A stretch of 64,000 nucleotides of DNA. Origin: an uncultured Alphaproteobacteria bacterium. Lineage in GTDB: Bacteria > Pseudomonadota > Alphaproteobacteria > Micropepsales > Micropepsaceae. The position numbers were made by a program, and so were the translations under genes. The stretch lies in contig CALMGU010000077.1 in the NCBI GenBank assembly GCA_937865685.1, positions 1 through 64,000 of the forward strand, read 5' to 3'. This document shows, one piece after another, positions 36,236 through 38,504 of the stretch; position 1 is the first letter of the stretch; each line of letters begins with the position of its first letter. The notes below the pieces were generated by a model. The model was not told the origin of the DNA. It was given only the letters and a program-made list of their open reading frames with translations, and ran no database searches.

Positions 36236-36266
36236 GGGCCACCCGCTCATCGAAAACGGGTGGCCC
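36236..36266. terminator. Perfect 10-bp terminator hairpin
   Basis: GGGCCACCCG (36236-36245) and CGGGTGGCCC (36257-36266), loop of 11 bases, between the convergent EF-hand and cytochrome c genes. Confidence 0.75.
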
Positions 36267-36313: not shown

Positions 36314-36691
36314 TCAGCGGGCGTTCTTGACGTCCTCGGGTTTTACCGTGTCCTTGTAGGCATTGCCGAAATGGGTGCGGACATAGTTCACCACATCGGC
36401 GATCTGCTGATCGCTCATCGCCACGCCGAAGGCAGGCATGGATTTAAGGCCCTGCGTCACCACCGAGATGGGATAGCCCGGCTCGGCCAGTTTGGGATTT
36501 TTCGCCAGCGCCGGATATTGGCCCGCGCCCACGGCGCCTCGCCCGCCCTCCATGTGGCAATCCTGGCAGATGCCTTTGTAGAGCGCCTCGCCGCCTTGCT
36601 GGGGAAACTGGTTGCGGCTGGCTTGGGCATTCGCGGCGGCGGCGGCGAGCACGAAAGTGGCGGCGAGAAGAAGTGTGTCGGCGGTTTTCAT
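36314..36691 (-). CDS. Periplasmic class I c-type cytochrome
   Basis: 125 residues from ATG at 36691, leader ending ANA-Q. One haem site GICQDCHMEGG and the Met ligand in LKSMPAFGVAMSDQQIADVV, followed by the C-terminal helix VNYVRTHFGNAY. It belongs to the small monohaem electron carriers. It starts 11 bases after the flavin amine oxidase, so the two are one operon; the cytochrome is the likely electron acceptor of that enzyme. Confidence 0.9.
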   Translation of the reverse strand: MKTADTLLLAATFVLAAAAANAQASRNQFPQQGGEALYKGICQDCHMEGGRGAVGAGQYPALAKNPKLAEPGYPISVVTQGLKSMPAFGVAMSDQQIADVVNYVRTHFGNAYKDTVKPEDVKNAR

Positions 36692-36702
36692 GGGTTTCTC
36701 CC

Positions 36703-38304
36703 TCAGGCCGATAGGACGCGCTTGTGCAGGCGGGTGATGGCGTCCAGCGCCGACAGCACCGAGCCTTCCTGCCAGGCCATCAGATGCGAGCAATGCTCGC
36801 CCGCCAGCACGATGCGGTTGTCGACGGCGCACATGTCCGCGTAATGCTTTTCGCGCAGCGCGTCGTTCCATAGCCCGGAGCAGCCAAGCGTCCAGGGCAC
36901 GCGGTGCCAGGCGACGGCCACGCCGTTCATGAATTCGGCGCGGTATTGGGGATGGATCTTGGAGCCTTGTTCCAGCGCGGCTTCGATCTGTTCCTTGGCG
37001 CTGAGGGCTTCGAAATTATAGGTGCGCATGCCGCTGCGGTAGATGTACGCGCCGAGCAGAACCGCCGGGCCTTTCTCGAAGAAGCCGTGGCTCGGATAGC
37101 TGATGTTGAAGATCGGCTGGTCGGTATAGGTGTTGCCGCCATAGATATTGTCGTCTTCTTCCCAGAAGCGGCGTTCGAATTGCAGGCCCACCTTCACCGC
37201 CGGCAGATAGGGCAGGCTGTCGATGGCGGCGCGCATTTTCGCGCCCACATTCATGGGAATCTGGCTGAGAACGGAAACCGGAATGGTGTTGACGCACCAA
37301 TCGGCTTTTTCCGTCTTGGGCGCGCCGCCGGTCTTGCCGTTGATGTAGGTGACGGTGACGCCGGTTTCGTCCTGGTGGATGCTGGTGACCTTGCAGTCAT
37401 ATTGGATCACCCCGTCCAGCAGCTTGCCGAAGGCCTTGCCGATCTCGCCCATGCCGCCCTTGGGCTGGAAGAGTTGGCCCTGGAAATCCCATTGTTTGGG
37501 GAAATAGAGCGCGCTCCAGAGCGTGGACTTGAACAGTTCCGTGCGCGGCATGATGTCGGATGGAACCGGGCCCGCCTGCAGCCCGCCGCCGGGCGGAATG
37601 TCATAGCCGCGAAAGTCGCTGGAGATTTCGCCCTTCTTATATTCGTAGTTCTTGTCCAGCCCGCCCCAGGTCTTAAGCATCTGGAGCACCCCGTCCTTCT
37701 CGTCCTTGTCGAGCAGATCGTCCAGCCGATTCTGGCTGGTGGCCTTGGCGAGAAGTTCGGAGATGTGGCCTTCATAATCGGCGGCGACTTCGCGGAAGCG
37801 CTTGGACTGGCCGCCAAAGGCATTGGCGGAATGCACCAGCGCCGCGTTGTTGTACATCACGAAGCTTTCCAGCGGCACGTTCAGCATCTTGCAGTAATGC
37901 AGGATGCCCTGATGGTGATAGGGCAGGCGCCAGGGGCCGGGATTGAAATACTGGCCGGGCGCGAAATCGACTTTCTGGGTGGTGCCGCCGATATCGGTAT
38001 AGCTGTCGCCCGCATGCAGCGACCAGTTCCGTCCGCCGGGACGGTTGTTGTATTCCAGGATCTTCACTTTGTAGCCGGCCTTGCGCATTTCATACGCGGC
38101 GACCATGCCGGCGATGCCCGCGCCCAGGATGATCACCGAGGCGCCCTTGGCGTTGCCCTGCAAAGTGATGGGGCCGGTGAAGTCCGAATTGGCGGCATAG
38201 CCCATGGAGAGCATGGCGTCGTACATCGCCGCGGTGCCGCCCGCGAGGCCGATGGCGGTGAGGAGCGAGCGGCGGGTCCATTTCTCGTTCGCGAAATCCT
38301 TCAT
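36703..38304 (-). CDS. Tat-exported flavin monoamine oxidase/dehydrogenase
   Basis: 533 residues from ATG at 38304, after GAAGGAGAGCCGGG. A Tat leader (EKWTRRSLLTAIGLAGGTAA) is followed by the FAD motif ASVIILGAGIAGMVAAYEMR and the arginine-rich RPGGRNWSLHAG. The end VLAGEHCSHLMAWQEGSVLS is the typical second FAD-binding strand of the amine oxidase (MAO/LAAO) family. The length fits. Paired with a cytochrome c gene, it resembles NicA2 of Pseudomonas, a flavin amine oxidase that hands electrons to a dedicated cytochrome instead of O2. Substrate (an amine or amino acid) unknown. The operator at 38319-38360 lies directly upstream. Confidence 0.88.
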   Translation of the reverse strand: MKDFANEKWTRRSLLTAIGLAGGTAAMYDAMLSMGYAANSDFTGPITLQGNAKGASVIILGAGIAGMVAAYEMRKAGYKVKILEYNNRPGGRNWSLHAGDSYTDIGGTTQKVDFAPGQYFNPGPWRLPYHHQGILHYCKMLNVPLESFVMYNNAALVHSANAFGGQSKRFREVAADYEGHISELLAKATSQNRLDDLLDKDEKDGVLQMLKTWGGLDKNYEYKKGEISSDFRGYDIPPGGGLQAGPVPSDIMPRTELFKSTLWSALYFPKQWDFQGQLFQPKGGMGEIGKAFGKLLDGVIQYDCKVTSIHQDETGVTVTYINGKTGGAPKTEKADWCVNTIPVSVLSQIPMNVGAKMRAAIDSLPYLPAVKVGLQFERRFWEEDDNIYGGNTYTDQPIFNISYPSHGFFEKGPAVLLGAYIYRSGMRTYNFEALSAKEQIEAALEQGSKIHPQYRAEFMNGVAVAWHRVPWTLGCSGLWNDALREKHYADMCAVDNRIVLAGEHCSHLMAWQEGSVLSALDAITRLHKRVLSA

Positions 38305-38318
38305 CCCGGCTCTCCTTC

Positions 38319-38360
38319 GGTATATGCGGGCATATACCCGTAAAATGGGGGTATATACCC
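38319..38360 (-). promoter_or_regulatory. Cluster of palindromic operator sites
   Basis: GGTATATGC-GG-GCATATACC (38319-38338) is a perfect inverted repeat, and GGGTATATACCC (38349-38360) a perfect 12-bp palindrome, ten bases apart. Both share the GGTATAT half-site. They lie 15 to 56 bases before the amine oxidase start and would cover its promoter. No regulator gene is adjacent. Confidence 0.65.
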
Positions 38361-38455: not shown

Positions 38456-38504
38456 GGTATGCAATCCGGACCTGGCGGAGCGACAGCGATCCGGACTGCA
38501 TACC
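38456..38504. repeat. 15-bp inverted repeat with 19-base spacer
   Basis: GGTATGCAATCCGGA (38456-38470) and TCCGGACTGCATACC (38490-38504) match with one mismatch. It stands alone in the gap between the amine oxidase promoter and the next gene. Function unknown. Confidence 0.5.

Follow-up and report, generated by a model that had tools for sequence, protein, structure and literature searches.

What does a flavoenzyme oxidize, and to what does it pass its electrons, when it carries an export signal and is encoded directly ahead of an exported cytochrome c? The question is raised by a gene pair in the window, the 64,000-nucleotide stretch of DNA analysed here (Table 1), whose first member is a flavin amine oxidoreductase (FAO) of the type of the R. 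opacus L-amino acid oxidase (LAAO). The pair probably acts as a periplasmic L-amino acid:cytochrome c oxidoreductase. The first-pass annotation had described it as a periplasmic amine dehydrogenase linked to respiration; the cellular setting it proposed, a FAO exported by the twin-arginine (Tat) route together with an exported cytochrome c, is supported by genomic context, while its NicA2-like enzyme acting on an unknown amine is not retained.

The two genes are closely spaced. The FAO starts at an ATG at 38304, preceded by a GAAGGAG ribosome site, and ends with a stop codon at 36703-36705; the cytochrome ATG at 36691 follows 11 bases past that stop, and a purine-rich ribosome site stands before each gene. 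The Tat motif TRRSLL occupies FAO residues 10-15, with R12 invariant across 28 aligned relatives, and the leader helix spans residues 11-33 in the AlphaFold model. The cytochrome has a single haem site, CQDCH, and an axial-type Met within MPAFG. Re-reading of the sequence reproduced exactly the coordinates, 11-base spacing, Tat leader and CxxCH and Met ligands of the first-pass annotation. A convergent EF-hand gene faces the 3′ end of the cytochrome gene, and the window FAO is accompanied by its cytochrome gene alone.

Table 1. Features of the FAO-cytochrome c locus, in window coordinates
Feature	Position	Strand	Basis or remark
Flavin amine oxidoreductase (FAO), R. opacus L-amino acid oxidase type, 533 aa	36703..38304	(-)	Pfam, phmmer, AlphaFold/Foldseek
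FAO twin-arginine leader, TRRSLL plus hydrophobic helix, ~residues 1-34	38203..38304	(-)	Read in sequence
Arg126 codon in GPWRLP, equivalent of the substrate-carboxylate Arg (snake LAAO Arg90)	37927..37929	(-)	Alignment
Tyr420 codon, equivalent of the second carboxylate ligand (snake LAAO Tyr372)	37045..37047	(-)	Alignment
Monohaem cytochrome c, 125 aa, Sec-type leader	36314..36691	(-)	Pfam Cytochrome_CBB3 8.5e-13, also Cytochrom_C
Two 12-bp near-palindromes, GGGTATATACCC (38349-38360) and GGGTATATGCCC (38328-38339), 21 bp apart	38328..38360	(.)	
Perfect 9-bp inverted repeat, GGTATATGC/GCATATACC	38319..38338	(.)	Overlaps second near-palindrome, directly before ribosome site
15-bp inverted repeat, 19-nt spacer, upstream of operon	38456..38504	(.)	Inverted-repeat scan
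13-bp terminator-like hairpin, T-rich tail, 3′ of cytochrome gene	36236..36266	(-)	Suggestive only

Sequence and fold both place the enzyme among L-amino acid oxidases. It contains the Pfam Amino_oxidase domain (E 1.4e-50), and its best solved relative by sequence is the R. opacus LAAO (RoLAAO; 2jae), matched by phmmer over nearly the whole chain (E 9.2e-81); an ancestral tetrapod LAAO and snake venom LAAOs come next. Much weaker hits, for the most part limited to the FAD-binding start, are those to monoamine oxidases, LSD1 and other amine oxidases. The AlphaFold model, built with 28 window and locus sequences as input (pLDDT 88, pTM 0.84), was matched by Foldseek to 2jae/2jb1 (E 4.9e-51 for 2jae, TM 0.84/0.93, rmsd 2.2, 33% identity). 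The first 42 of the 50 fold matches listed are L-amino acid, L-glutamate or L-lysine oxidases, with RoLAAO leading, and none of the 50 is described as NicA2. NicA2 was considered as the closest relative and set aside, being absent from these 50; nor could it be recognized among the best sequence matches. As a guide to what the FAO oxidizes, NicA2 is not supported.

The substrate pocket was compared by aligning 48 FAO family members with both LAAO references. In snake LAAO, Arg90, through a salt bridge, and Tyr372 hold the substrate carboxylate (PMC6149928). The position of the first, Arg126 in the window enzyme, is Arg in 48/48 relatives and in both references, while that of the second, Tyr420, is Tyr in 32, Phe in 14 and Gln in 2 of the relatives; Trp511 and the flavin-N5 lysine Lys371 are each invariant (48/48). 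For RoLAAO, we take Arg84, Tyr371, Trp426, Trp467 and Gln228 to be the pocket positions, Arg84 being the one that aligns with snake Arg90; those of these numbers that were checked are shifted by one residue from the chain and otherwise agree with it. The presumed Trp426 and Gln228 are replaced by Ser and Phe in the window FAO, and most cytochrome-paired members have Ser, Ala or Thr at one pocket position that is Trp in RoLAAO. The window enzyme therefore resembles RoLAAO in fold, overall identity, carboxylate Arg and Tyr, active-site Trp and N5 lysine, but differs from it at two other pocket positions and in the adjoining cytochrome gene. RoLAAO is an O2-using oxidase, and we know of no cytochrome partner for it. 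With these other positions changed relative to RoLAAO, the particular amino acid that is used cannot be predicted.

The neighbourhoods of relatives bear on the same question. Relatives were gathered from GTDB contigs (47 loci), 61 near genomes and 387 genomes of the class (24 positive), and their flanks were read; distinct full-length homologues number 84, of which 57 form a close set at ~48% identity or more to the window FAO. In 25 of these 57, among them a paralogue of this genome on contig C57, a same-strand gene for a Rid protein lies no more than 7 kb away; at C57 the order is FAO, cytochrome c, exported Rid (L019 6753-7220) and then a TonB receptor. No Rid gene was found beside the window pair. 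Many Sphingobium operons run from a TonB receptor through an exported Rid, the FAO and cytochrome c to a Tat-signal class I/II aminotransferase, a Tat-signal class V aminotransferase and a further exported Rid. The Tat-type leaders on the two aminotransferases were read in L036 (7964-10347) and in other Sphingobium loci, suggesting that pyridoxal phosphate (PLP) enzymes may be at work in the periplasm near the FAO-cytochrome pair. The imines and imino acids that L-amino acid oxidase produces are hydrolysed by Rid proteins (PMC5619798). Where an exported LAAO-like enzyme has an exported Rid as its neighbour, the context therefore speaks strongly for an L-amino acid substrate.

The LAAO fold, the retained carboxylate Arg and Tyr and the exported Rid imine deaminases near relatives together indicate that the substrate is most likely an L-alpha-amino acid rather than a plain amine, and the unknown amine of the first-pass annotation gives way to this class. 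A reading in the line of that annotation, a NicA2-like dehydrogenase for a polyamine, aromatic amine, alkaloid or other non-amino-acid amine, does share the general architecture of NicA2/Pnao-CycN, a Tat FAO with a cytochrome c (PMC12224317), and the pocket residues beyond the carboxylate pair do depart from RoLAAO. It is nonetheless improbable, given the LAAO fold and carboxylate residues, neighbours in relatives that handle amino acids and imines, and an invariant Arg at the carboxylate position that is hard to explain for a plain amine. A narrower form of the preferred reading would have the cytochrome accept electrons from a modified or unusual alpha-amino acid, or one derived from a peptide and imported, for example, through TonB. 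TonB receptor genes adjoin several relatives, the number of paralogues (six in this genome, seven in G014) suggests specialized substrates, and the Ser, Ala or Thr in place of the RoLAAO Trp in most cytochrome-paired members points the same way; this version is compatible with the best explanation, and we rate it very unlikely.

The case for an L-amino acid:cytochrome c oxidoreductase depends further on whether the cytochrome belongs with the enzyme. Homologues that always lack the cytochrome gene, set down in the first-pass annotation as the case against it, are not what was found: a homologous cytochrome gene lies directly downstream in 45/57 close relatives, spanning Sphingobium, Caulobacterales and Pseudoxanthomonas. 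Among the remaining 12, two are cut by or near contig ends (L130_5, L101), seven fall in one clade, two are the first of two FAO copies with a shared cytochrome and one has its cytochrome upstream. Every one of 53 neighbouring cytochromes carries the CxxCH and the axial-type Met, and the pairing label changes 6 times on the tree, against 27 after shuffling. Because it is common to 45 of 57 distinct relatives, the pairing is not due to chance. Below 48% identity it was seen in Duganella, Massilia and one alphaproteobacterium, and was not found in Woeseiaceae, Bacteroidota and several alphaproteobacterial lineages. The distant Woeseiaceae homologues (L054, L055, L056, L058, L060, L065) have KR rather than RR leaders and no cytochrome gene, and are adjoined by YceI-like and DoxX-like genes, as judged by eye.

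Comparable arrangements have been described before. In Gluconacetobacter diazotrophicus, the lao-cccA-ridA cluster (GDI2456-2454) encodes a 533-aa Tat LAAO about 34% identical to RoLAAO; disrupting this LAAO removes 95% of the indolic products formed from tryptophan, and an LAAO-cytochrome c arrangement is reported also in Caulobacter crescentus and Xanthomonas (PMC5053998). Cytochrome c maturation mutants of Gluconacetobacter make 5% of wild-type IAA (PMC5053998, citing Lee et al. 2004). Likened by its published description, this cluster matches the window pair in having a 533-aa Tat LAAO-type enzyme next to a cytochrome c, whereas no ridA adjoins the window pair and a ridA-type gene occurs instead at the C57 paralogue. 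Among NicA2-type enzymes, those with a Tat signal and an adjacent cytochrome c were predicted to be cytochrome-using dehydrogenases, which stopped-flow kinetics confirmed (PMC12224317). The window pair resembles this NicA2/Pnao-CycN class (PMC12224317; Akram et al. 2025) in its Tat FAO and adjacent exported cytochrome c, the electron path of the window pair being a presumed one. That class, however, was collected by BLAST with NicA2, whereas the window FAO is nearest to L-amino acid oxidases and keeps the carboxylate Arg and Tyr, and it is unlikely to share the substrates of the class.

From the gene pairing, the kinetics of NicA2-type Tat FAO-CytC systems (PMC12224317) and the Gluconacetobacter genetics (PMC5053998), we infer that electrons pass from the FAO to the cytochrome. 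The enzyme would fold with FAD in the cytoplasm before Tat export. In the periplasm, an L-alpha-amino acid would be bound through Arg126 and Tyr420 and give a hydride to FAD, and the imino acid released there would be hydrolysed, spontaneously or by an exported Rid, to a 2-oxo acid and ammonium. The two electrons on the reduced FAD would pass singly to two molecules of the operon cytochrome c, which would feed a terminal oxidase, so that no H2O2 need form. TatC, cytochrome c assembly proteins and haem-copper oxidases are all encoded in the genome. In the literature, no biochemical result was found for any member of the exact clade of the window FAO, and, beyond the Gluconacetobacter study, none of the papers listed by the searches concerned an L-amino acid dehydrogenase using cytochrome c; the activity of the FAO, its exact substrate and its preference for cytochrome over O2 are deduced.

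Several observations weigh against this reading. RoLAAO itself bears the name of an oxidase, and the window copy has no Rid gene next to it. The flavin-N5 lysine, which is tied to reaction with O2, is kept in the window FAO; it is also kept in most known dehydrogenases (PMC12224317). A further point comes from the paralogues. Two of the six FAO paralogues in this genome, on contigs C93 and C22, belong to a sister branch of the window copy and lack a cytochrome gene. Together with their orthologues they form the seven-member clade noted above, 64% identical, which is sister to the window copy and its two orthologues. No cytochrome-like CxxCH frame occurs within 6 kb of its members; a CMTCH frame near the C93 copy was considered as a hidden cytochrome and rejected, as it does not read like one. 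Since the clade is nested among cytochrome-paired lineages, it is most simply read as having lost the cytochrome gene, and the flavoenzyme can evidently persist without it.

The retained lysine and the close sister clade would suit a genuine L-amino acid oxidase in the periplasm, reducing O2 to H2O2, with the cytochrome as a co-expressed general electron carrier or a peroxide-related protein. In addition, the leading fold matches, RoLAAO included, are all named oxidases, and a fast reaction with O2 is the rule for Tat FAOs that have no cytochrome c gene beside them, holding for most of these (PMC12224317). The tight pairing in 45 of 57 relatives and in tandem duplicates, and the loss of the pathway in Gluconacetobacter cytochrome c maturation mutants (PMC5053998), make an O2-using oxidase unlikely, and transfer to the cytochrome remains the preferred reading. 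The tandem duplicates form a FAO-cyt-FAO-cyt array on contig C27 of this genome (L018 778-5158), in whose second FAO the carboxylate Tyr is replaced by Gln, a hint that the substrate has changed. The assembly of the genome is incomplete (3.26 Mb, 87%, 184 contigs), and mis-binning is an unlikely source of the paralogue set because similar sets recur in other genomes.

The cytochrome-less copies have neighbours of their own. Beside the C93 copy (L016 10675-14303) lie genes for a LysE-type exporter, a MerB (alkylmercury lyase) domain protein, unexpected in such a setting, a PLP enzyme of the PALP type and an Aminotran_5 protein. The last of these begins with a stretch similar to a Tat signal and has a homologue beside the orthologue in L089. 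A convergent PQQ beta-propeller dehydrogenase gene follows the C22-type copy in 6/6 loci (L017, L023-L026, L090).

The window copy is further set apart by the DNA ahead of it. The unusual operator described in the first-pass annotation is real as a sequence feature: two near-palindromes sit just before the FAO ribosome site and are conserved in both available orthologues (L021, L088). The double element is identical in the near relative L021 and appears in L088 (73% identical) as GGGCATATACGC...GAGCATATGCCC with an additional upstream TTGTAAAG box, while the flanking DNA has diverged; it is absent upstream of the other paralogues in this genome. At ≤1 mismatch, the 3.26-Mb assembly has no matches other than these two near-palindromes, both within 33 bp; a control pattern gives three matches, so the count by itself is not enriched. 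This pattern fits a dedicated regulator site for the window copy alone, a modest claim given that three orthologues are few. A genome-wide regulon site was rejected, as both genome matches lie at the window operon. The GTATATAC core suggests a HutC/UTRA-type regulator; this candidate was also rejected, since none of the three UTRA proteins in the genome is in the window and no matching box was seen beside them. Searches of the window and genome did not find a regulator for the element. Of the other flanking features, the 15-bp inverted repeat is single-copy in the genome and its L021 counterpart differs, both arms having changed together, and hits like the terminator-like hairpin are no commoner than in shuffled sequence. 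An RNA element in the operon leader was discarded for lack of an Rfam match and a folding z-score of only -1.8. A consensus scan found no sigma-70 promoter.

The arrangement itself is already published, as a genetic cluster for the LAAO type (PMC5053998) and as a proven biochemical class for the NicA2 type (PMC12224317). The present analysis adds the wide occurrence of the pairing among LAAO-type enzymes, the multiplication of paralogues, the exported Rid proteins and aminotransferases encoded nearby, and the sister clade without a cytochrome gene. A wider proposal, to which we give somewhat less than an even chance, is that these enzymes constitute a cytochrome c-using FAO lineage outside the three NicA2-derived clades, made up of paralogue-rich periplasmic L-amino acid dehydrogenases to which some genomes add exported Rid and Tat aminotransferases, giving a periplasmic amino-acid module that would feed respiration.

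The enzyme-cytochrome pairing of nicotine degraders is also common among many LAAO-like proteins that usually carry an oxidase annotation. Should the cytochrome prove to be the true acceptor, outside amino acids would supply these bacteria with respiratory energy and ammonium and no peroxide would be made; the acceptor put forward for auxin synthesis in Gluconacetobacter would become directly testable. The cytochrome-less sister clade, at 64% identity, provides a natural pair for asking what switches such a flavoenzyme between cytochrome c and O2.
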